Positions 4,563-64,000 of a DNA stretch of 64,000 bases are shown here, piece by piece. The notes beneath the pieces are model-generated. The model had not been told where the DNA came from. It was given only the letters and a program-made list of their open reading frames with translations, and ran no database searches. Location of the stretch: positions 62,001 to 126,000 of the IMG/VR virus record IMGVR_UViG_3300008266_000027. One strand, given 5' to 3'. The DNA is from a virus. Position numbers and translations under genes: made by a program. The stretch's first letter is position 1. The number at the start of each line of letters is the position of its first letter.

Positions 4563-7500
4563 TTAGGTAATACTAATATCAGAAGGCTGAATAAAAGCTT
4601 TTTCGCCCTCAGATATAGATATTCTTTCGTTGTTTGGTGTAGGCGAAACAAATGTTACCGCTTCAACACCTACTATATTCTTAATTCTTACAATTATGTC
4701 AGAGAGTATCACGTCTTCGCCTACTCCAAGATTAGACACATAGCTTATTATTGCTGAAGCTATCTCGTCGGTTATCTCACTTAAGTTAACACCATCTTGT
4801 GTTGTTATGTCTACAGATATAGATACTTTAACAGGTATAGGCGGAAGAACTTCTATCGCACTTCCAACTGCTTTTCTGCCAGGAAAAGAGGACGAATCAG
4901 GGTCAAATCCATCTACAATTCTTTGAACTTTTCTGAGTAGTCCTGTATAGTATTTATAACCGTCTATACCAACTACTATCGAGTTATCATAGCCAATTTT
5001 ACCTACACTAGATATAAAGCTAGAGTTGTTCTCATTCCATTTATAATCGCGATCTCCTCCAGAAAGATATACTATACGTCTATTTTCGTTTAGCGGATCT
5101 ATGGCTGTATGATAGACTTCTCTTATTGACGTAAACTTATTGTCATCATTTTCAGTTATTAAGAATTTACTATTTGCTAAGCCAGCACTAACATCTATTT
5201 CAGAAAGTCCACTAGAATTATTTACTCTAATATACTGTCTACCAGATAAGCCATCTGTTCCTAGATCCTGGATATCAAAGTTTCCTGAATTAGAAAGACT
5301 AAACCAGCTATCGCTTGTATTTTCACTAATGAATAAGTTGTCACTAACTCTTGCTGAGTCGCCTTCTAGTATTCTAATATCAGATGCATTATTTAAGTAA
5401 ACGCCTTTGCCTATATCTGAGTTTTGATCTAGTGCATGAGAAGGAGAGTTTCCGCTGTCTCCAGTGTAGCTACTACTTAGTGTAACTATTGTAGCATCTT
5501 TAGCAAGCGAAGAATTAAATCCACTTACTTGAACCAGCAGTGTGTCTTCGTCTGTTGTTTTCTTAACCCAGTCACCAATACTCAAATTACTAAAAGTTCC
5601 AGGTATGCCAATTACGATATTAGAATTAGATGTCCATGTTGGCTCTAGGCTATAATTATTAAAGGCAACAAATGTGTCCAGCTTTTCTAGCGCCTGCATA
5701 TTTCTATAGACAATAGAATCGTTGTCTAGCGCCAGTATTCTAAACGCACCGTTATTTGCAGAGCCAAAGCTAGATCCACTTACTAACAGTAAGTCGTCTA
5801 CTGCTGCACCACAACTTAAAAATTTAGGCGAGTCACCATCAACCAAAGAAAGCCTATTCATACCGTTATGCCCAAGTGACTCAATCTTGTAGCGAGTTCT
5901 AGTTTGCCCAGGTTTGAGAATTAGACCTGCAGGAGAAATACTTAGCGCATTTGAATTAGTTGAGGCGTACGTAAATTTATTTGAGTCTACTATGCTTAGA
6001 ACTATTCCAGTATTTGGACTCGCACTGCTTGGAATATCTATGGCTGTAAAAATATCGCCAACGTCTAGACCATGAGGATTTTCTGTAGTTGCAGTTGCTA
6101 TATTCGAAGCTATAGCTATAGACTGAATCTTATTAGGCGCTGAGTGTGCTAGATGCCATTCTAGTGCAGGTGCTGCAGATATTATAATCTCGTTTCCACC
6201 TATCTCTGTAGCAGACATAGCTTTTCCATCTGGATTTTCTACGTCTAGATATTTGGCAGATTGATTTACTGCCACTATAGGAAGTCCACCAATCACATTA
6301 GAGCCAGTATTTTTACAGAAATTACCTGTACTCCAGCCGTCTACTGCTATACCACTTTCAGAAAATAATGTTAATAAGCTGCCCTCGGTTACCTGAGAAA
6401 GTGTAGCTCCAGGAGTTTGACCTATGCTAAAGTCACTAGATATACCATTAATAGAGAGTGCTATGCCTAGTTTGGCTATTATCTGATTAGGTGTATCTGT
6501 ACTTAATACGTCTACTCTAACAATATTATCTGCAGATATAGGCACAGTAGCATCAGCTACGCCATTAGTCGTCACACCAAATATAAATCCAGGTGAAGGC
6601 GATCCATTTGAGCCTGCAGTTATCGGGCCATTTTGCGAGCTAGTTGCTGTTATAGAAGCTAGAGCAAAACCATCATCAGAACCAGCAGTTACTACACTAA
6701 AATTAAAATTCGTAGATGGAGTACCGTCAGCACCTGCAGCTACTAAACCATTGTCTGCATTATTTACAGTTATAGTTGCGCCGCTTATAGTCTCGCCTGT
6801 TCCAGGAGAAATCAGAGAAAAGTTAAAACCAGTAGCATCAGCACCAGCACCGTCTACTCCAGCAGTTATTAAACCAACTTGTGCATTGGTTACAGTTATA
6901 GTAGCAGAATTAACAGTTGTTCCACTGCCAGAGCCAGCAGTATTAAATATGTAAGCTTTAGCATTACCGCCGTCTGCGCCAGTCGTTGCTATAAAATTAC
7001 TAGAAATGGAAACACCGGAGCCAAAACTGGTTCCAACGTTTTCAAAAGGGTTATTTAATGTAGAAAGTAATCCCCAGTTATCAACTCCGCCTTGATCTTT
7101 ATAGAATACATACGCTTCACCAGCGTCAACAGTTGTATCAGTAGAACCATCATCACTATATGCGCCTACTATTATGTAGTTGCCACTGATAGCGGCTGAC
7201 CAGCCAAATAAATCGCCGGCATCTGGGTTAGGCGATGTTAACGTTTTAATCAAGCCCCAATTTTCAGTTCCGCCGTAATTTTTCTTAAAAATATGCAGAT
7301 ATTCATATGGAGTTTCAAGTGCTATGATATAGTCGCCACTAATATTTACTGAATAGCCAAAATTACCATTTGGTGGCCAAGTAGAAAAATTTGGAGCAGT
7401 GATAGTTTTGACTAATCCCCAGTTATCAACTCCGCCCTGGTCTTTCTTATACACAATAATAGTTGAATTAATAATTGAAGATAAGTTAGATGGCTTTAAT

Positions 7501-10500
7501 ACTAAATAATCACCACTTAAATGTAAAGGCGCGCCACTATTGTTGCCAGCAACCTCAAATCCAGGAGTAAAACTCTTGATTAAGCTCCAGCTCTCTAGTC
7601 CCGTATCTTTCTTAAATATATATACTTCGCCAGCATCATTGACTGTATCAGTAAAACCATCGTCACCTGCAGCATGTACCGCGATATAGTTTCCGCTTAT
7701 TGCAACATAGGTACCAAATCGATCGTACAAGTCTTCATCTGGTGAATTAAGTGTAGCAGTAAGTCCCCAGTTATCAATTCCGCCCTGATCTTTTTTGTAG
7801 ACGTAGGCTTCACCAGCAGCACTGATAGCATTAGTAGAACCGCCGTCCTCAAAAGCACCGACGACTAGATAGTCTCCATCTGCATCAATAATAATACTAT
7901 TGAATCCGCTAAAAGGCAGCGTCTTGATTAGTCCCCAGTTATTTAATCCACCTTGATTTTTCTTATGTATGAAAACTGATGATAGCAGGCCATTAGATCC
8001 GACAGCGAACATGTAATCGCCTGATATTTTTGTATATATACAATTGTAACCGCTAGGAGTAGCTGCTGCTTTAATATAAGAGCCAGGGGTTATTACTGGT
8101 GCAGTTGTAGTTGTTACTATTGCGCTAGCAAAAGCTGAATCATTGTCAATAATATTCGCCGTCTTAGTAGCCACTTCTTCAAAATCATCATTGGTGCTTA
8201 TATTAATCTCTCGCGACCTAGTAGTGGTTCCTACCGCAGGTTCAACTGTTCCGCTGTTATTGTTGTCATACCAGAATTTAACAGTATCTCCGTTACCAGC
8301 TTCTAGTACAAAATAAGAACCATTAAGTGAGTTAGAGACGTCTGGTTGACAGCCTATTGTCTGTATAGCGATATTGCCAGGAACCGTCGTGGTTGTCACT
8401 GTTGCACTAGCAAAAGCTGAATCATTATCGATCGCATCAGCTGTTTTAGTAGCTACTGCTAGAACATCGTCATCTGTATCTACATTAATCTCTACTGATC
8501 TATCGGAAGGAACAGCAGGAACACCCGCTACGCCAATAGTATCTATTGACAAAATAAAATTCGTAGGTGTAGTGCCGTCAACTCCAGCATTAACTGGACC
8601 ATCAGCAGAATTAGTCACTGTTATTGTCGCAGGACTTAGACCGTCAGGTGTTCCAGTCAAAACCACACTAAATGTAAAATTAGTAGCAGGAGTACCGTCA
8701 GTGCCAATCGCTACCGGTCCAGAGTCAGCATTTGCTAAATCTATAGACGCTGGAGTTGGAGTTGCAAGATTGATACTATATATATATGCTTCACCAGCGT
8801 CATTTAAAGTTTCAGTAGAGCCGTCATCAGAAGATGCTCCAACCACTATATTGTCGCCGTCTACAGCCACTTGACTTCCAAATCTATCTCCGTTCTCATT
8901 AGGTGAGTTAAGTTGTTTTAAGAAACCCCAGTTATCAGTCCCGCCTTGATTTTTATAGAATAAGTAAGCCTCACCAGCGCTACTAACGCCATCAGCAATA
9001 CCTCTATCGAAAGGTGCACCTACTACTATATAGTTACCGCTAATAGCTACTGACCAGCCAAAATAATCATTTGCATCTTCATTGGAAGAATTAAGCGTCT
9101 TAATTAAACCCCAATTGTCAGTTCCGCCTTGATCTTTATAAAATACATAGGCTTCACCAGCGCTACTTATAGCATCAGTAGATCCGTCATCGCCATATGC
9201 ACCTACTACTATATAGTCACCACTAATAGCTACTGAATAACCAAATTGATCTGCAGTATCTTCATTGTCGGAATTAAGTATCTTAATTAAGCCCCAGTTA
9301 TCAACACCACCCTGATCTTTTTTGAAGACATAAACTTCACCAGCGTCAATAATAGCGTCTATGGATCCGTCATCAACGAATGCCCCTACTGCTATGTAAT
9401 CACCACTAATAGCTACTGACCAACCAAATTGATCTCCAGTATCTTCATTGTCGGAATTAAGTATCTTAATTAAGCCCCAGTTATCAACACCACCCTGATC
9501 TTTTTTGTAGACATAGGCTTCACCAGCACTACCAATAGCATCAGCAGTACCATGATCTGTTCTAGCCCCTACTACTATATAATTACCGTCTATAGCTACT
9601 GAGTTACCAAATGTGTCTCCATCATCTTCATTGTCGGAATTAAGTGTCTTAATTAAGCCCCAGTTATCGGCTCCACCCTGATCTTTTTTATAGACATAGG
9701 CTTCACCAGTACCAATAGTACCAGTAGAACCTTCATCGCCATATGCACCTACTACTATATAGTCACCATCTATAGCGACTGAATAGCCGAATGCGTCATC
9801 TGTGTCCTCATTGGGTGAATTAAGTGTCTTTATTAAACCCCAGTTGTTTGCTCCACCTTGATTTCTTTTAAAAATATAAGCTTCACCAGCAGTAGTGATA
9901 GTGTCAGTAGAGCCGTCATCTTGAGGTGCTCCTACCACTGCGTAGTCTCCGCTGATAGCTACTGAGTTACCAAAAGCATCTGCTAAAGATTGATTAGAGG
10001 AATTAAGTTGCGCAACGAACCCTGTATTAGAAATTTCAGGCGTTATTAGCACACTTGCAAAAGCTATATCAGATGATATTGCTGTAGCTGTATGTGTAGC
10101 TACTGCATCAGAATCATCATTTGTAGATATGGAATTGATCTCTACTGACCTAGTAGTGGTTCCTACTGCAGGCTCAGCTGTTCCGCTGTTATTATTGTCA
10201 TACCAGAATTTAACAGTATCTCCGTTACCAGCTTCTAGTACAAAATAAGAACCATTAAGTGAGTTGGAGATATCTGGTTGCAGCTGAATTCTTTGTATAG
10301 AAGGCACCCCAGATCCTGGCATTATTACGCCTGGTGTTACTATTGCACTAGCAAAAGCTGAATCATTATCGATCGCATTAGCTGTTTTAGCAGCAACCTG
10401 ATTCACATCATCGTTCGTGTCTATATTAATCTCTAGCGATCTAGTAGTAGTACCTACTGCTGGTTCAGCTGCTCCGGCATTATTATTGTCATACCAGAAT

Positions 10501-13500
10501 TTAACTGTATCTCCGTTACCAGCTTCTAGTACAAAATAAGAAGTATCCAGTGAATTAGATACATCTGGCTGACATTCGATAAGCTGTATAGACGGTGATC
10601 CTGGTATGCCTAAACCAGGCTCAGTTGTGCCAGCATCATTGTTATCATACCAGAATTTAACCACGTCGCCGTTTCCAGCATTAAGTGTAAAGTAAGAACC
10701 ATCTAGTGAATTAGCTATGTCTGGCTCACAATCGATATCATGAACAGTAGGAGACCCGGTAATAATTCCTCCAGGTGTCACTGCCGCGCTAGCAAAAGCT
10801 AGATCGCTGTCTATTGCTGCTGCTGTTTTAACGGCTACTTCATTTACGTCGTCATCTGTGTCTATGTTAATCTCTACCGACCTAGTAGTAGTACCTACTG
10901 CTGGCTCTGTTGCTCCGGCGTTATTATTGTCATACCAGAATTTAACAGTATCTCCGTTTGGAGTTTGTAATATAAAGTAAGAAGCATTAAGTGAGTTTGC
11001 TACATCTGGCTGACAACCAACTGTCTGCACAGATGGGGTTCCGCCTATCAGCATAACAGGAGGCGTTAGATTACCGTCTACAGAAAACCATGCGATCCAG
11101 CTAGAATCAGCACTGTTTATAAATCTAAGATAATCTGCATGATCAGGTACTCCAGAAGAAGTTACTCTGAAAACTAGATTGTCATCAGAGTCTCCAGCCT
11201 GAGTTACTTCTTGATGAATTTCGCTATTTGATGTTAATGCACCTATTGCATTTCGCATTTGCGGATTGTAGTCTACGGATCCTTCGTCTGTATCTGACAA
11301 TATGAGATATGAACCTGAATCATCATGAGTCCATCGCCAGACAATTCCAGGAGTAGGATAGCTAATTGGATCTAGCGAGTGAGCATCTACTATATTTATC
11401 TTAGTATACTGATTAAAATTAGTATTCTTAGAATTATACATGTACTCGCAAGTGCTGTCATTCTTCTTAACAACATCTATACTGTCATTTTGACCTAGTC
11501 TGCTTATGCGCTCAACCCCATAGTCATTTTCAAGTTGAACATGGTGTCCTGGCTGAAGTGTATTTGGCGAAGCTGGTATTTTAAACTGCAAGAAATTATC
11601 AGAATCTTCAACTATCTGAGAGCTTCCTATTAATTTAAATTTTGCGTTATTTGCACTACCACCCACTATTTCTATAGCTCCACTAGATCCAAGCTGCTGT
11701 GATTTTATCTGTATTGAACTGCTGTCATTGGCAACAGAAACTCTAGACACTATATTTAGCTGTGAAAGCGCTCTATGTGTCATATGATGTGCTAGATTAT
11801 CTAGAGTTGATGGTATAAGTTTAAATTTTTCACCAGTAGTTCCATCTAGATTTATTGCAGTATCTAGCTCGTATAGTGGCGTTACGCCTACTAGAACTAG
11901 TGGTTTTTTAAGTTGAAAATTAGGATTAGCATTTTGAAAACTTGATATCCAGTTCTTTGAGTCCCAGAAAGATATAAAATCATGATAATTGCTAGAAGGA
12001 TTAGGATTATGATAGTAGGCTACTTCATTGATAGCGACGCCAGTTATATCTCTAGTGGCCTTAATCAATGTGCCAGATGTGTGCTCTACTGCTTCAAGCA
12101 TAGGATTTGTATTTATTTTAGCAACTATGTCTGCAATAGTATTCTGTTTTATAGAGAAAATTTCTAGCTTATTTACTAGATTTATAGTTTCATAGCTGTC
12201 AGCAACTCCAGCTATATCTAGTAAAAATGTAAAACCTGTAGGCACTACTCCGTCTTGGCCTGCAGTAACTGGGCCATTGACTGCATCTACTATAGATATG
12301 GTGGCAGAAGTTCCAGAGGCATTTGTCACAGAAGCAAAGGCTGGGTCTCCTGCCATTATGATGGCAGTTTTTGTGGCGACATCTATATCTGTGTCATCGT
12401 TAAGGATGTCGATCTCCCAGCTTCTAGTTGTAGCTATTGAAGCAGGCTCTAGTGTACCGCTGTTGTTATTGTCATACCAGAATTTAACCGTATCGCCATT
12501 TGCTGCGCTAACTATAAAATAGCTTCCATTTAGACTTCCACTAGAGTCTGCAACGCATACTATCTCTTGAACTGAAGCTGAACCTACTGCTGTTGCTACT
12601 CCGTCTATGCTATAAAAATCTAGTGTTTTAGCGATATCATCCTTTTGAAGAATGCTGAAAGTTCCGCAATTTGCTGTTGAAAATCCGCTTGTTTCACCTA
12701 TAGATATGACATCACCTATATTTATAGAATTAACACTAGCAGTAGTAGGAAATTTTAACCTAAGTATGCTAGAGCCTAAGTCTGTCAGTGTGAACTGGTC
12801 TCCTGGAGAGATGTCTGTATTTATTGCGCTGTTTGAACCAAATACATATCTAAAAGAAGTTACGCCTGGAATTGTAGATTGCACAAGCGTGCTCTCGCTA
12901 TCGGCAGTACTAGGGTAGTCGATTCCAAAAGTATATTGTTCGCCTATTGGACCATAGTCGCTAGCTCTTATTATCATGGCTGCGCCATTATCATAATACC
13001 AGTTTCTAGCTCTAAACCATATATTGTAGTCGTTAAAGTTAGTGCTCCCCTGAGATGGCAAAGTGCCCCAGATATCTGCTTTACCGAAATCAATACCAGA
13101 CTCGTTATCTATGTCATCTGCAGAGAATGCTATGCTAGTAGGTATGAAATTTGAAAGCTGCGAACCGCTATTGATCTGACCAGTTCTTGAGAGTGGCATA
13201 TCTATGGTTTTAGCTATAGGATCATTGTCTAGTATCATTACGATATTATCTTCGGATGAAAGTTCTAGACCTTTAACTGCACTATACTCATCTCCAGCAG
13301 TGTAATCCATTAGAGTTCTAGGCGTAGAGTTTCTTGTGCCTATTTGACTTGAGCTTAATATGGACCTAATATTTCTTGATTGGCCCTTATTTTGACCACT
13401 TGTTATTTCTATGAAATCGTCATAGCTTATATCATTTAAAAAATCCGTAGCAGTGTCAGTTAATGTTTCAGAATAAAAACCAGAGCCGTCAATGCTAGGC

Positions 13501-13592
13501 TGTGAGTTTGCAGTAAGTGAACCTCTTATTTCGCTATAAACGTGTCTATCTAGCCAAACATTATCTGATTCTGGCTCAGATCGTTTAAACAT
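4563..13592 (-). CDS. Giant baseplate J-like C-terminal protein with two seven-bladed FG-GAP propellers
   Basis: A 3009-aa structural protein. The last ~120 residues (VSISVDITTQDGV to NERISISEGE) look like the C-terminal domain of baseplate J/gp47-type wedge proteins; the N-terminal half of that fold is the separate gene immediately upstream. Between the ends are about six copies of a ~90-residue module (PD-(V/I)-(S/A)-NSL-x-x-SYF, then DxVKFWYDNN, then TRS-EIN) and two groups of seven integrin-alpha-type FG-GAP repeats, roughly residues 1190-1610 and 1845-2215. Each repeat carries an FG-x-SVAISGDYIVVGA-like core. Fourteen repeats would make two complete seven-bladed propellers, usually adhesion or carbohydrate/protein-binding folds. 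No strong Shine-Dalgarno precedes the ATG at 13592, so translation may be coupled to the upstream gene. Surface-exposed receptor binding or baseplate decoration is inferred. Confidence 0.75.
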   Translation of the reverse strand: MFKRSEPESDNVWLDRHVYSEIRGSLTANSQPSIDGSGFYSETLTDTATDFLNDISYDDFIEITSGQNKGQSRNIRSILSSSQIGTRNSTPRTLMDYTAGDEYSAVKGLELSSEDNIVMILDNDPIAKTIDMPLSRTGQINSGSQLSNFIPTSIAFSADDIDNESGIDFGKADIWGTLPSQGSTNFNDYNIWFRARNWYYDNGAAMIIRASDYGPIGEQYTFGIDYPSTADSESTLVQSTIPGVTSFRYVFGSNSAINTDISPGDQFTLTDLGSSILRLKFPTTASVNSINIGDVISIGETSGFSTANCGTFSILQKDDIAKTLDFYSIDGVATAVGSASVQEIVCVADSSGSLNGSYFIVSAANGDTVKFWYDNNNSGTLEPASIATTRSWEIDILNDDTDIDVATKTAIIMAGDPAFASVTNASGTSATISIVDAVNGPVTAGQDGVVPTGFTFLLDIAGVADSYETINLVNKLEIFSIKQNTIADIVAKINTNPMLEAVEHTSGTLIKATRDITGVAINEVAYYHNPNPSSNYHDFISFWDSKNWISSFQNANPNFQLKKPLVLVGVTPLYELDTAINLDGTTGEKFKLIPSTLDNLAHHMTHRALSQLNIVSRVSVANDSSSIQIKSQQLGSSGAIEIVGGSANNAKFKLIGSSQIVEDSDNFLQFKIPASPNTLQPGHHVQLENDYGVERISRLGQNDSIDVVKKNDSTCEYMYNSKNTNFNQYTKINIVDAHSLDPISYPTPGIVWRWTHDDSGSYLILSDTDEGSVDYNPQMRNAIGALTSNSEIHQEVTQAGDSDDNLVFRVTSSGVPDHADYLRFINSADSSWIAWFSVDGNLTPPVMLIGGTPSVQTVGCQPDVANSLNASYFILQTPNGDTVKFWYDNNNAGATEPAVGTTTRSVEINIDTDDDVNEVAVKTAAAIDSDLAFASAAVTPGGIITGSPTVHDIDCEPDIANSLDGSYFTLNAGNGDVVKFWYDNNDAGTTEPGLGIPGSPSIQLIECQPDVSNSLDTSYFVLEAGNGDTVKFWYDNNNAGAAEPAVGTTTRSLEINIDTNDDVNQVAAKTANAIDNDSAFASAIVTPGVIMPGSGVPSIQRIQLQPDISNSLNGSYFVLEAGNGDTVKFWYDNNNSGTAEPAVGTTTRSVEINSISTNDDSDAVATHTATAISSDIAFASVLITPEISNTGFVAQLNSSNQSLADAFGNSVAISGDYAVVGAPQDDGSTDTITTAGEAYIFKRNQGGANNWGLIKTLNSPNEDTDDAFGYSVAIDGDYIVVGAYGDEGSTGTIGTGEAYVYKKDQGGADNWGLIKTLNSDNEDDGDTFGNSVAIDGNYIVVGARTDHGTADAIGSAGEAYVYKKDQGGVDNWGLIKILNSDNEDTGDQFGWSVAISGDYIAVGAFVDDGSIDAIIDAGEVYVFKKDQGGVDNWGLIKILNSDNEDTADQFGYSVAISGDYIVVGAYGDDGSTDAISSAGEAYVFYKDQGGTDNWGLIKTLNSSNEDANDYFGWSVAISGNYIVVGAPFDRGIADGVSSAGEAYLFYKNQGGTDNWGFLKQLNSPNENGDRFGSQVAVDGDNIVVGASSDDGSTETLNDAGEAYIYSINLATPTPASIDLANADSGPVAIGTDGTPATNFTFSVVLTGTPDGLSPATITVTNSADGPVNAGVDGTTPTNFILSIDTIGVAGVPAVPSDRSVEINVDTDDDVLAVATKTADAIDNDSAFASATVTTTTVPGNIAIQTIGCQPDVSNSLNGSYFVLEAGNGDTVKFWYDNNNSGTVEPAVGTTTRSREINISTNDDFEEVATKTANIIDNDSAFASAIVTTTTAPVITPGSYIKAAATPSGYNCIYTKISGDYMFAVGSNGLLSSVFIHKKNQGGLNNWGLIKTLPFSGFNSIIIDADGDYLVVGAFEDGGSTNAISAAGEAYVYKKDQGGIDNWGLTATLNSPDEDLYDRFGTYVAISGNYIAVHAAGDDGFTDTVNDAGEVYIFKKDTGLESWSLIKSFTPGFEVAGNNSGAPLHLSGDYLVLKPSNLSSIINSTIIVYKKDQGGVDNWGLVKTITAPNFSTWPPNGNFGYSVNISGDYIIALETPYEYLHIFKKNYGGTENWGLIKTLTSPNPDAGDLFGWSAAISGNYIIVGAYSDDGSTDTTVDAGEAYVFYKDQGGVDNWGLLSTLNNPFENVGTSFGSGVSISSNFIATTGADGGNAKAYIFNTAGSGSGTTVNSATITVTNAQVGLITAGVDGAGADATGFNFSLISPGTGETISGATITVNNADNGLVAAGADGTPSTNFNFSVVTAGSDDGFALASITATSSQNGPITAGSNGSPSPGFIFGVTTNGVADATVPISADNIVRVDVLSTDTPNQIIAKLGIALSINGISSDFSIGQTPGATLSQVTEGSLLTLFSESGIAVDGWSTGNFCKNTGSNVIGGLPIVAVNQSAKYLDVENPDGKAMSATEIGGNEIIISAAPALEWHLAHSAPNKIQSIAIASNIATATTENPHGLDVGDIFTAIDIPSSASPNTGIVLSIVDSNKFTYASTNSNALSISPAGLILKPGQTRTRYKIESLGHNGMNRLSLVDGDSPKFLSCGAAVDDLLLVSGSSFGSANNGAFRILALDNDSIVYRNMQALEKLDTFVAFNNYSLEPTWTSNSNIVIGIPGTFSNLSIGDWVKKTTDEDTLLVQVSGFNSSLAKDATIVTLSSSYTGDSGNSPSHALDQNSDIGKGVYLNNASDIRILEGDSARVSDNLFISENTSDSWFSLSNSGNFDIQDLGTDGLSGRQYIRVNNSSGLSEIDVSAGLANSKFLITENDDNKFTSIREVYHTAIDPLNENRRIVYLSGGDRDYKWNENNSSFISSVGKIGYDNSIVVGIDGYKYYTGLLRKVQRIVDGFDPDSSSFPGRKAVGSAIEVLPPIPVKVSISVDITTQDGVNLSEITDEIASAIISYVSNLGVGEDVILSDIIVRIKNIVGVEAVTFVSPTPNNERISISEGEKAFIQPSDISIT
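6950..8060 (-). repeat. Second FG-GAP repeat block (seven units, diverged)
   Basis: This part of the giant gene encodes seven diverged repeats of the ISGDY-(I/L)-(V/A)-V-type core, spaced about 50-60 residues apart and often followed by GGxxNWGL. Some units have lost the FG or VGA part (for example the one reading LHLSGDYLVL). It is consistent with a second seven-bladed propeller. Confidence 0.65.
8766..10020 (-). repeat. First FG-GAP repeat block (seven near-identical units)
   Basis: Seven tandem units of about 170-180 bp encode FG-(N/Y/W/S)-SVAI-(S/D)-G-(D/N)-Y-(I/A)-VVGA, then a DGS-rich turn, then GEAY-(I/V)-(F/Y)-KKDQGG-x-(D/N)-NWGLIK-(T/I)-LNS. Neighbouring units are also very similar at DNA level, so the array is prone to slipped or unequal recombination and could be collapsed in a short-read assembly. 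Confidence 0.8.
10040..11020 (-). repeat. Tandem ~90-residue module of the giant tail protein
   Basis: Four successive copies of a module with PD-(V/I)-(S/A)-NSL, SYF-x-L, DxVKFWYDNN, and, in all but the shortened third unit, TTTRS-EIN and AFAS landmarks. Two further copies occur around 8100-8360 and 12300-12560. The third unit (about 10600-10745) is shortened. The order suggests expansion by tandem duplication. Confidence 0.65.
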
Positions 13593-61209: not shown

Positions 61210-61380
61210 ATGGATTTAATAAGGACGATCGTGCTTCTGTGCAGTGTTACGTCTGGCAGAGATTCCGCTGACTATGTTGAAAAACTCCAGTTAAAATGCC
61301 AGCAGCATTATGTTAAGTGTTTAGAGAATACAAGTACATACAGAGATCTTTCTAGATGTATAAAAGAAAGAAAATTATGA
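61210..61380 (+). CDS. Small Cys-containing protein, paralog of 43287
   Basis: 56 aa: MDLIRTIVLLCSVTSGRDSA, KCQQHYVKC, then RCIKERK. Shares Cys spacing and ends with the 68-aa protein at 43287. SD GGAGG. Function unknown. Confidence 0.6.
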   Translation: MDLIRTIVLLCSVTSGRDSADYVEKLQLKCQQHYVKCLENTSTYRDLSRCIKERKL

Positions 61381-61387
61381 GGTTAAT

Positions 61388-61726
61388 ATGTCAAGCACTA
61401 AAGAACTAACGGATGTTGCAGTCGCAGAAAAAGAGAGTATACGAGAGCCGTCAAAGTATGACGTTATAGTTCACAATAACCAGCACACCTCATATGACGA
61501 GGTCATAATCATACTATCTAATGCCTTTGAGATGAATTATCAGCAGGCACTAGATTTAGCAAATGTTGTTCACACAGAAGGCAAAGGCAGATGCGGAACT
61601 TATAGTAAAGAGGTCGCAGAAATGAAGCTAGTGCTTATAAACACTATAAAAGAATCACTGTCTCAAATAGTACCACAGAGAGCTAAAGAAATAAAGATGC
61701 TATTATTTACAATAGAGAAGAACTAG
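61388..61726 (+). CDS. clpS: ClpS-like N-degron adaptor
   Basis: 112 aa. Residues ~22-110 match ClpS: PSKYDVIVHNNQHTSYDEV, a helix with ILSNAF, VVHTEGKGRCGTYSKEVAEM, and TIEK at the end. ClpS delivers proteins with bulky N-terminal residues to ClpA. Compared from memory with E. coli ClpS (NDDYTPME), the pocket has N-N-Q-H-T-S-Y: Asn34, Thr38, and further on Val65-His66, are kept, but Asp35, Asp36 and the gatekeeper Met40 are replaced by Asn, Gln and Tyr, so the N-degron preference may differ. A ~22-residue N-terminal extension, needed for delivery, is present. The next gene, 7 nt away, is ClpA. Confidence 0.85.
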   Translation: MSSTKELTDVAVAEKESIREPSKYDVIVHNNQHTSYDEVIIILSNAFEMNYQQALDLANVVHTEGKGRCGTYSKEVAEMKLVLINTIKESLSQIVPQRAKEIKMLLFTIEKN

Positions 61727-61733
61727 GAGCAAT

Positions 61734-64000
61734 ATGACTAACAAGATTACAGAAGAAGTCATTAATGGTGTTATAGCTGAGTCTAATATAAACACAATAT
61801 CTGTATGTAAGTTCTTTCGCTATTGTCTAAAAGAAGATTTTAAAGAAAATATATCTTTTTTAAAAGCAAAAGGCGCAGACATAGAGTTCTTAAAAGATTC
61901 TCTAGACAATCATATAGAGGTAGAAGACGCACAACTTGAGATATTTAGTCAAGTTAAAACACTTATGAACAGATCATCTCAACTGGAACCAGCAATGACT
62001 CCAGAGTTGAGCAAAGTATTTGATCTTATGAAAAAAGCTGCAAGCAAAGATCAGCGACCAATGTATTTTGAAGATATGATAAATGCCATACATGTGCTAG
62101 GAAAGTCTGATCCTGACATGTACATAATCTACTTCTTAAAAAAATCTGGCTACAAGCATGATCCAGAATCTTCGCCTGGCGCACGCGGTAAATATAAGTT
62201 TATAGGAGAACTATGCGATGACTTAAATGCCAGAGCAAGCAAGAAACTCATAGATCCACTAATTGGTAGACGAAAAGAAGTAGAGCGGATGGTAGAAATT
62301 CTAGCTCATTATAAGAAGAAAAACCCTATGCTTGTTGGTTTACCAGGTGTTGGTAAAACAGCAGTAGTCGAGGGTCTAGCCTCTATGATTGAGCAGAATT
62401 TAGTACCAGAGTCACTTAAAAAATCAAGAATATACTCATTGAATGTAGGCAACATATTGGCTGGTTCAAAGTTTCGTGGTGAATTTGAAGACAAGGTCAA
62501 GGGTGTACTGCAAGATCTTAAGACTATGAAAGAAAAAGAAGGCATTAACGCCATACTATTCATAGACGAAGTGCATCAGGTGATGGGCGCAGGCGCAGGT
62601 GGAAGCAAGGAAGGTGTGGATCTAGCTAACATGATTAAGCCTGGTCTTGCCAATGGCGATCTTAGCTGTATCGGTGCAACAACAGATGATGAATACAACC
62701 AGAAGATTCTTAAAGATAAAGCACTTATGCGCAGATTTCAGGTAGTAAAAATTGAAGAGCCTTCAGCAGAAGAGACTCTTCGCATACTAGAACAGGGAAT
62801 AAAGCCCGTACTAGAGTCTTATCACGGAGTTAAATACTCTAGAGAAGTTCTAGAGCGAATAGTCGATCTATCAAAACAGTATGTAACCAGTCAGTTTTTT
62901 CCGGACAAGGCCATATCTATAGCCGACTCAGTCGGTGCTAGAATTAAAACTACACTTAAGGCGGAAAGAGTTGATGCTACAGTAGACGACGTAGAGGAGA
63001 TAGTTTCTTCCATTACTGGAACGCCGGTGTCTGCTTTCAAAAAAACTCGTAGTAAAGAAACTTATGTCGATATAGCTAAAAATATAAAATCTACTATTTT
63101 TGGTCAGGATTCGGCGATTGATCGAGTAACTGAGCAGGTCGAATTAGCCAAAGCTGGATTGCGAGACGAGGGTCAGCCGATAGGTTCTTTTTTATTGCTA
63201 GGCCCAACAGGAACAGGGAAGACCGAGTTGGCAAAGCAGATAGCTGCACAAACTGACTCGCATTTCTTTCAGCTCAATATGTCAGAATTCTCTGAAGAGC
63301 ACGCCGTTGCAAAGTTGTTCGGAGCTCCTCCAGGCTATGAGGGACACGATCAAGGTGGTGTACTCACCAATGAGATAATGAAGTATCCGCACACTATCTT
63401 GCTTCTTGATGAGATTGAAAAGGCAAATAAGAAAGTCTATGACGCATTATTAGGCATCATTGACGGTGCGCAGATGACAGATGGCAGAGATAATAAGGTA
63501 GATTTTGGCAATGTGCTTATACTAATGACATCGAATGCTGGAGCTTCACAGGCCGCTAGAACTAAAAAACCGGTTGGAATAACTAGCGATGATGACGATG
63601 CAAAGAATGCAAAAGCAAAGAGTATGGATGGCGTATTAAAGGATACATTTAGCCCGGAATTTAGAAACAAACTTACAGGCGTTGTATTGTTTGATTCATT
63701 GCAAAAAGATGTTATCATTAAAATAGTAGAAAAATTTATAAAAGTTGCACAAGTAAAGCTAATGGCAAAAGGCATAAAATTAACTGCAAGTAAAAAGGCA
63801 AAAGAATTCATGGCAGACAAAGGCTATGATCCAGAGATGGGTGCTAGGCCTATTAAAAAGCTAATAGATGATCTTATAGTCAAACCTCTTGTTAAACCAC
63901 TTCTTAAAAAAGAAGTTGAAGCTGGTGATACAGTAAAAGTTATATTAGTAGATAACGAGATTAAACTTGAATTCATAAAACCAAAGCAGCAAGAGGAGGT
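61734..64000 (+). CDS. clpA: ClpA-like AAA+ unfoldase, 3' end outside window
   Basis: At least 755 residues, open to the window end. A divergent N-domain (about 1-140; the half TPELSKVFDLMKKAASKDQR aligns with ClpA) is followed by IDPLIGR, Walker A GLPGVGKT (about residue 202), Walker B ILFIDEVH, D2 Walker A GPTGTGKT (about 489), LLLDEIEKA and YDPEMGARPI. It lacks the long ClpB middle coiled coil, so it is ClpA-type. At the place of the ClpP-docking IGL loop it has PVGIT, close to the (L/I/V)-G-(F/L) consensus, so docking on a host ClpP is plausible. No clpP is in the window. SD AGGAG, 7 nt after clpS. Confidence 0.9.
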   Translation, partial: MTNKITEEVINGVIAESNINTISVCKFFRYCLKEDFKENISFLKAKGADIEFLKDSLDNHIEVEDAQLEIFSQVKTLMNRSSQLEPAMTPELSKVFDLMKKAASKDQRPMYFEDMINAIHVLGKSDPDMYIIYFLKKSGYKHDPESSPGARGKYKFIGELCDDLNARASKKLIDPLIGRRKEVERMVEILAHYKKKNPMLVGLPGVGKTAVVEGLASMIEQNLVPESLKKSRIYSLNVGNILAGSKFRGEFEDKVKGVLQDLKTMKEKEGINAILFIDEVHQVMGAGAGGSKEGVDLANMIKPGLANGDLSCIGATTDDEYNQKILKDKALMRRFQVVKIEEPSAEETLRILEQGIKPVLESYHGVKYSREVLERIVDLSKQYVTSQFFPDKAISIADSVGARIKTTLKAERVDATVDDVEEIVSSITGTPVSAFKKTRSKETYVDIAKNIKSTIFGQDSAIDRVTEQVELAKAGLRDEGQPIGSFLLLGPTGTGKTELAKQIAAQTDSHFFQLNMSEFSEEHAVAKLFGAPPGYEGHDQGGVLTNEIMKYPHTILLLDEIEKANKKVYDALLGIIDGAQMTDGRDNKVDFGNVLILMTSNAGASQAARTKKPVGITSDDDDAKNAKAKSMDGVLKDTFSPEFRNKLTGVVLFDSLQKDVIIKIVEKFIKVAQVKLMAKGIKLTASKKAKEFMADKGYDPEMGARPIKKLIDDLIVKPLVKPLLKKEVEAGDTVKVILVDNEIKLEFIKPKQQEE

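Follow-up and report, generated by a model that had tools for sequence, protein, structure and literature searches.

ClpA-like genes are common in phages, and ClpA, ClpS, and ClpP have been found together in one jumbo phage, Agrobacterium phage Atu_ph07, which is described as encoding ClpX, ClpA, ClpB, a ClpP, and ClpS (PMC6102473; PMC numbers are PubMed Central accessions, and the papers are cited from excerpts of their text unless the main text is named). For jumbo phages, it has been proposed that ClpS delivers targets to the host ClpAP and that ClpA aids virion assembly (PMC7824862), whereas in moraphages ClpA is listed among the shared gene families, with an occurrence of 24 (PMC12619734). 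Serratia phage BF and Klebsiella phage RaK2 also gave matches to ClpS, ClpP, and the D2 module of ClpA-type proteins. Here, we describe a 64,000-nucleotide stretch of viral DNA (the window; bases 62001 to 126000 of the 165,836-bp IMG/VR virus record IMGVR_UViG_3300008266_000027), near the end of which a gene for a ClpS-like adaptor directly precedes a gene for a ClpA-type unfoldase, while two clpP genes, clpP1 and clpP2, lie further on in the record. We lean, if only slightly, toward reading these genes as a private, ATP-dependent ClpSAP-type protease of the phage. Among what appears to be new, the remodelled N-degron pocket of ClpS stands out, beside the unusual ClpPs and the compact, conserved clpS-clpA-clpP1 block. 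In the open-licence PMC literature, judged mostly from the openings of abstracts, we found no report of an adjacent clpS-clpA pair in a phage; the main text of a survey of huge phages (PMC7162821) contains neither "Clp" nor "protease", and the excerpted text of a review of jumbo phages (PMC13282480) does not contain "Clp".

In comparison with ClpAPS of Escherichia coli, the phage system shares the clpS-clpA order, the domain plan of ClpA, its Walker and pore motifs and docking loop, the folds of ClpS and of the ClpA N-domain, and the ClpS residues E79 and K84. Different from E. coli, the phage ClpS carries the replacements D35N, M40Y/F, and M62A and about 10 extra residues before its last strand, the N-domain of the phage ClpA is too diverged to be recognized by sequence, ClpP1 has a basic tail and is without the N-terminal stretch, and the second ClpP is of another type. 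The three phages mentioned above resemble this virus in having a ClpA-type match, a ClpS match, and at least one ClpP-family match per genome, but their Clp genes are widely separated (in BF, the end of clpA is at 149060 and the start of clpS at 230851), and the ClpS proteins of BF and Atu_ph07 keep D35, unlike those described here (RaK2 ClpS was outside the alignment). The likeness to the moraphage ClpA family (VOG02072) is by name only. In the mechanism that we favour, ClpS would bind substrates through their N-terminal residue and dock on the N-domain of the phage ClpA, with its N-terminal extension threaded into the channel; ClpA would unfold the substrate and pass it via the VGI loops to a ring of ClpP. 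This ring would most likely be that of phage ClpP1, encoded downstream on the same strand, and the targets would be host or early phage proteins during takeover.

The sequence-only reading of this stretch had proposed that a ClpS-like adaptor and a ClpA-type unfoldase are encoded side by side, which was confirmed by Pfam, by the complete open reading frames (ORFs), and by their operon-like arrangement, since the two genes lie on the + strand with a spacing of 7 bp and the stop codon of clpS shares bases with the Shine-Dalgarno-like site of clpA. The clpA ORF is still open at the end of the window, and its stop codon follows 34 bases further on, at 64034 in window numbering (L002:1735-4035). 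For ClpS, the match to Pfam PF02617 exceeds the gathering cut-off of 23 bits (Table 1). The structural model (predicted local distance difference test [pLDDT] score, 85) matches E. coli ClpS structures, N-degron complexes included, and superposes on 2w9r_A with an E value of 9.8e-8 and a root mean square deviation (rmsd) of 1.5 over 96 columns. All seven ClpS of this phage group (hereafter the focal ClpS) retain the residues found as E79 and K84 in E. coli, while neither is invariant among 34 bacterial ClpS; E79 is presumably a ClpA-docking residue of E. coli ClpS. K84 has been described as a ClpA-docking (chaperone-binding) residue of ClpS (PMC12493166), and the N-terminal extension of E. coli ClpS goes into the ClpA channel (PMC9663308).

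In ClpA, Pfam confirmed the D1, lid, D2, and D2-small parts of the AAA+ architecture. The C-terminal part of D2, on which the sequence-only reading had made its proposal depend, is present (ClpB_D2-small, PF10431; 75.2 bits, residues 656 to 736) and falls entirely inside the window. All eight focal ClpAs have two AAA+ modules, each with a Walker A and a Walker B motif, as expected from the earlier reading (Table 1), and the pore loops read KFR and GYEG. The docking loop follows the pattern [VL]G[IL] in 8/8, with VGI in the window's own protein. The top match among PDB sequences is ClpA 1ksf (E value, 2.3e-150; query residues 143 to 746), with which the phage protein aligns without a large insertion; there is no ClpB-type middle domain (AAA_lid_9 runs to residue 437 and AAA_2 begins at 481), the highest-scoring NCBIfam model is that of ClpA (TIGR02639), and the top PHROGs family is PHROG 4871, a family of phage ClpAs (E value, 2.8e-204).

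The N-domain that had been attributed to this ClpA was not recovered at the sequence level and was recovered at the structural level. In fact, ClpA gave no match to Pfam Clp_N, and a profile search of PDB sequences with this region returned no Clp N-domain, only designed repeat proteins, haemagglutinin, and the like, which we take as chance matches. On the other hand, the AlphaFold model of residues 1 to 153, obtained from an alignment of seven sequences, has a pLDDT of 84 and a predicted template modelling score of 0.80. Foldseek matched it mostly to N-domains of ClpB, ClpA, ClpC, and Hsp104, with only ClpB 1khy_C below an E value of 0.001, and VIA-align placed ClpA 1k6k first (Z 14.9, 134 residues, rmsd 2.7) in a tie with ClpB 1khy_C (Z 14.3); its matches include the ClpA N-domains solved with ClpS (1r6o, 1lzw, and 1mg9). 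Judging from the model, residues 1 to 140 are thus an N-domain of the ClpA/ClpB fold.

Nine IMG/VR loci carry close relatives of this ClpA (L011 to L018 and L028; identity, 55 to 100%). Two of them (L011 and L012) are identical to the window across clpS and clpA, so that the independent evidence comes from the other seven, and L015, whose sequence breaks off 84 bases 5' of clpA, was not counted for clpS. In all eight relatives with upstream sequence, clpS lies immediately 5' of clpA (gaps of -4 to 8 bp), and clpP1 lies 3' of clpA in 9/9; the idea that the pair is unique to a single contig was refuted by this recurrence. A second ClpP occurs in six of the nine records, on the opposite strand and about 6 to 8 kb away, and the three relatives with one ClpP are short contigs (7.4 to 26 kb). 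Over the computed pairs of clpS, clpA, and clpP1, the proportion of nonsynonymous change (pN) is 0.06 to 0.37 and that of synonymous change (pS) is 0.64 to 0.80, proportions being quoted because the synonymous rate was not computable for most pairs. It follows that the three genes are under purifying selection and that the clpS-clpA order is not due to chance, because the same genes recur in the same order with nonsynonymous far below synonymous change. The ClpA N-domain evolves faster than D1-D2 in 6/6 pairs (window versus L017, nonsynonymous rates of 0.716 and 0.348).

The same arrangement is found in bacteria: of 34 bacterial loci, one on an Acinetobacter contig and the other 33 from two phyla, 31 have clpS no more than 300 bp from clpA, as would be expected if the genes had been captured recently from a bacterium, or were binned bacterial DNA, without a role in the phage. 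Such an origin seems highly improbable to us. In a tree of the D1 domain (69 sequences: 8 focal, 29 of 71 nonfocal viral, and 32 of 34 bacterial ClpAs), the focal ClpAs form one clade (support, 100/100) within a phage-only group (100/94) apart from the 32 bacterial ClpAs, although the focal stem is long (1.09) and its exact placement is uncertain. Furthermore, capsid, portal, terminase, and tail-fibre genes are present in the record, the block is retained in relatives with as little as 55% identity, and a scan of genome contigs with two narrow patterns gave nothing above 42% identity. Two other viral contigs, L036 (62 kb) and L075 (290 kb), also have an adjacent clpS-clpA pair with N34, D35, and H66 kept in ClpS; their ClpAs fall outside the phage-only group, on the bacterial side of the D1 tree (support, 92/80), L075 on a long branch of unsure place, and the two pairs are perhaps separate acquisitions.

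The most distinctive features of the phage system are in the N-degron pocket of ClpS, whose residues are numbered here as in E. coli ClpS. We compared the seven focal ClpS with 27 other viral ClpS, leaving the duplicates L107, L118, and L120 out of the viral alignment, and with the 34 bacterial ones, of which 13 came from a set of 59 genomes of one phylum, 20 from 60 genomes of a second phylum, and one from the Acinetobacter contig. The canonical pocket (N34, D35, M40, M62, and H66) is not found in the focal ClpS, in which D35, M40, and M62 are each kept in 0/7. In particular, we could observe D35N in all seven, in none of the 27 other viral proteins, and in none of the 34 bacterial ones, so that this replacement is specific to the focal group among the ClpS compared; M40 is replaced by Tyr or Phe, and M62 by Ala, in 7/7. 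T38 and V43 are present in all seven, N34 is kept in four, and H66 is kept in three, the window's own ClpS retaining both N34 and H66. In the bacterial set, N34, D35, M62, and H66 occur in 34/34 and M40 in 30/34. Of the viral ClpS, 11 have an aromatic residue (Phe or Tyr) at position 40, and each of these also has A62, which is absent from the 23 others; the covariation holds on the 27 nonfocal proteins alone (Fisher P of 5.7e-5, not corrected for kinship). The rule that a ClpS encoded with its own clpA has an altered pocket and the others an unaltered one was considered and rejected, given that L036 and L075, with adjacent pairs, keep the residues named above; the same pattern was rejected also on the ClpS of Atu_ph07, which carries N34D and H66E.

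In E. coli ClpS, the contacts with the N-degron are made by N34 and H66 and by oxygen atoms of the amide bonds of D35, T38, and M40, and the N-domain of human UBR1 has an Asp in place of H66 (PMC8346999). ClpS1 of Leptospira interrogans has Tyr, Ala, and Asp at positions 40, 62, and 66, for which its authors suggest a different specificity (PMC12493166). The same three residues occur in the focal ClpS of L014, L016, and L018, whereas the window's ClpS keeps H66; moreover, the Leptospira protein is not encoded beside clpA and has lost K84, different from the phage ClpS, which is encoded beside clpA and keeps it. By analogy, these contacts, the Asp of UBR1, and Leptospira ClpS1 support altered rather than lost recognition, and the pocket of the focal group can probably still work. 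ClpS may therefore still read N termini with a changed specificity; the N-degron specificity of E. coli is not to be assumed because the pocket residues differ.

As for the peptidase, both ClpP1 and ClpP2 are above the Pfam CLP_protease cut-off of 20.2 bits. The Ser-His-Asp triad is present in 7/7 ClpP1 proteins; among five ClpP2 proteins read by eye, Ser and His are present in all and Asp is present in four, with Asn in L141. The best NCBIfam matches of ClpP1 are bacterial ClpP models (111.6 bits; cut-off, 228), ahead of the head protease model (66.3 bits). At two places ClpP1 has an aromatic residue in 7/7, the Tyr of YIDSYGG and the Phe or Tyr of R[FY]C, both absent in the five ClpP2 proteins; we take these positions to correspond to the docking-cleft residues Y62 and F112 of E. 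coli ClpP. Because the aromatic pair is kept in ClpP1 and not in ClpP2, ClpP1 appears to be the likelier partner of ClpA. ClpP1 also has a C-terminal extension ending in a basic tail, with 10 to 15 Lys or Arg among the last 22 residues in 7/7.

According to the sequence-only reading, the pair would feed chosen proteins to the ClpP of the host, which is not supported as stated, the record having two ClpPs of its own, one of them co-oriented 2.1 kb downstream of clpA. A phage ClpP is therefore the simplest partner, and the host enzyme need not be involved. That ClpS-ClpA docks on host ClpP and brings it chosen proteins while the phage ClpPs serve otherwise would agree with the docking loop, which in 8/8 focal ClpAs is close to the IGL of ClpA, and with the published suggestion that phage ClpS acts on host ClpAP (PMC7824862). 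We nevertheless consider it unlikely: both phage ClpPs have plausible active sites, one is linked to clpA in 9/9 relatives, and the diverged N-domain of ClpA and the pocket of ClpS would fit a self-contained system. We infer that the phage proteins assemble with one another and that ClpP1 is the partner rather than host ClpP. It is possible to hypothesize, more tentatively and with the chances rather against it, that they make up an orthogonal N-degron pathway, in which a reshaped ClpS would read N termini other than those read by the host and deliver them only to phage ClpA and phage ClpP. In such a pathway, the pocket would be defined by D35N, by a variable H66, and by the combination of an aromatic gatekeeper and a small residue 62, and the ClpA N-domain would have codiverged, so that the virus would possess a self-contained, ATP-dependent protease obeying a degron code of its own.

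Several observations weigh against a private ClpSAP protease. The replacement of D35, M40, and M62 means that N-degron binding by the phage ClpS is not certain; this protein is below every NCBIfam ClpS equivalog cut-off (at best 58.4 bits versus 143) and, by that rule, classes as a diverged relative rather than an ortholog, while ClpA reaches 664 bits versus the TIGR02639 equivalog cut-off of 993, and the ClpA of L016 is without the aromatic residue of the D2 pore loop. No member of the Aat or Bpt families, both of which were looked for, was found in the record, so that degrons would need host enzymes or cleavage as their source. Both ClpPs are below the NCBIfam ClpP cut-offs, and the best model for ClpP2 is a ClpP-related head maturation protease (99.2 bits), against 87.3 bits with the best ClpP model (cut-off, 249), even though the cut-off of 120 of that head model (NF045542) is reached by neither ClpP2 nor ClpP1. 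In PHROGs, which holds phage proteins only, the top family of both is the head maturation protease phrog_94 (98.5 bits for ClpP1 and 149.3 for ClpP2), and the "ATP-dependent protease" phrog_1827 scores only 51.5 and 54.6 bits, respectively. ClpP1 lacks the N-terminal stretch corresponding to the axial loop, its alignment starting at model position 21 of 182 (whole open frame, 233 amino acids [aa]); ClpP2 aligns from model position 15 and keeps this loop partly at most. Finally, the ClpP of a freshwater phage was interpreted as a prohead protease (PMC5964084). A role in head or other processing is thus possible for either ClpP, for ClpP2 above all.

These ClpP matches and the precedent of the prohead protease would suit a different division of labour, in which ClpA would serve mainly in phage protein folding or virion assembly, as a chaperone or disaggregase tuned by ClpS, and the ClpPs would act separately as processing proteases, perhaps in the head. 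Chaperone or assembly roles are published guesses (PMC7824862 and PMC6102473), and among 71 nonfocal viral ClpA loci, 67 have neither ClpS nor ClpP in the flanks examined. We rate this explanation as improbable, a little more so than the use of host ClpP, in view of the conserved docking loop, of the NCBIfam ranking of ClpP1, which places bacterial ClpP above the head protease, albeit with all scores below cut-off, and of the distance between the block and the head gene module, which has a protease candidate of its own, although a weak one (phrog_1028; 26 bits, E value of 9.6e-6, no Pfam support). ClpP2, too, is encoded outside that module, at 134.8 to 135.5 kb of the record versus about 8 to 19 kb for the head genes. 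Weighing all this, the private ClpSAP protease remains the reading that we prefer.

The sequence-only reading had also regarded a phage-borne pair as rare, which was an overstatement, in view of the published Atu_ph07 set, the moraphage ClpA family, and 238 ClpA-like loci confirmed on viral contigs in a single two-pattern scan. The directly adjacent pair is indeed less common. The neighbours of clpA were examined in 80 of the 238 loci, 71 of them nonfocal; an adjacent clpS-clpA pair was found in 10 of the 75 with at least 500 bp upstream, 8 of the 10 belonging to this phage group, and 69 of the 71 nonfocal loci have no ClpS immediately upstream (five of all 80 are without 500 bp upstream). A tblastn search of 50,697 phage records gave a ClpA-like match in 161, some of which are bacterial DNA, and a ClpS match in 12, two of them named Acinetobacter phage MD-2021a. 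The one of these two contigs that was opened, CAKLQH020000043.1 (L137), was the nearest "phage" match and was rejected as a phage pair, since, where it was read, the genes argC, clpS, clpA, aroF, and bioH indicate a bacterial chromosome.

The features of the locus are collected in Table 1.

Table 1. Features of the clpS-clpA locus and the two clpP genes (window coordinates unless the record is named)
Feature	Position	Strand	Basis
clpS, 112-aa ClpS-like adaptor	61388..61726	+	Pfam ClpS 60.7 bits; fold match to E. coli ClpS 2w9r_A, rmsd 1.5
ClpS N-terminal extension, residues 1-20, largely predicted disordered	61388..61447	+	pLDDT <50 at residues 1-16
ClpS pocket segment N30-N31-Q32-H33-T34-S35-Y36 (E. 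coli N34-D35-D36-Y37-T38-P39-M40)	61475..61495	+	Alignment
ClpS second pocket segment A58-N59-V60-V61-H62 (E. coli M62 to H66)	61559..61573	+	Alignment
AGGAG Shine-Dalgarno-like site of clpA; overlaps clpS stop TAG 61724-61726	61725..61729	+	Read from sequence
clpA, two-ring AAA+ unfoldase, 766 aa	61734..64000 in window, ORF to 64034	+	PDB 1ksf, NCBIfam TIGR02639
ClpA N-domain (by model), residues 1-140, diverged Clp_N fold	61734..62153	+	Model pLDDT 84; 1k6k Z 14.9; no Pfam Clp_N hit
D1 Walker A GLPGVGKT, residues 202-209	62337..62360	+	
D1 Walker B ILFIDE, residues 274-279	62553..62570	+	
D2 Walker A GPTGTGKT, residues 490-497	63201..63224	+	
D2 Walker B ILLLDE, residues 555-560	63396..63413	+	
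VGI tripeptide of ClpP-docking loop, residues 614-616	63573..63581	+	Aligned with IGL of ClpA 1ksf
ClpP1	128,168-128,839 of record (L002:6169-6840), ~2.1 kb beyond clpA	+	Pfam CLP_protease 112.7 bits
ClpP2	134,832-135,485 of record, ~8.8 kb beyond clpA	-	Pfam CLP_protease 105.2 bits

The genes clpS, clpA, and clpP1, all on the + strand, have nrdAB, thyX, and a DNA ligase gene as neighbours, and thyX, a sigma-like ORF, a trypsin-like protease, and DNA ligase recur in 8/8 relatives compared. The trypsin-like protease (L002:7844-8662; Pfam Trypsin_2), with an N terminus that looks lipoprotein-like by eye, is encoded 3' of clpP1 in all eight. A 56-aa ORF (61210 to 61380) ends just 5' of clpS and, among eight relatives compared, was found only in L012, where it is near-identical, and L013. 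The head module lies on the - strand about 100 kb from clpS-clpA-clpP1 and comprises a portal, a terminase, and a major capsid protein closest to SPO1-type phages (28 to 30% identity among the matches listed). The first 20 kb and the last 7.8 kb of the record have 32 20-mers in common, with no clean terminal repeat demonstrated, and a 3009-aa ORF in the window (4563 to 13592, - strand) is repetitive by eye. The motif NGQW-x-L-x-K occurs in five proteins of the record (window 57321, + strand; 37672, 36269, and 29364, - strand; L003:615, + strand), and in four of them it lies within about 15 residues of the likely start; one of these proteins recurs in the relative L013, and a looser pattern was met once in 1.66 million bases of other loci. 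The motif is possibly a shared targeting, packaging, or cleavage signal.

In the excerpts consulted, the published readings of phage Clp proteins make them helpers of the host ClpAP or of virion assembly. The conserved adaptor-unfoldase-peptidase block described here suggests that some phages bring the whole machine, so that this virus may have its own means of destroying selected proteins. The changes in the ClpS pocket amount to a testable prediction on degron specificity and could be exploited for orthogonal degradation tools. Should host proteins be the targets, regulated proteolysis by the phage would represent an added route of host takeover.

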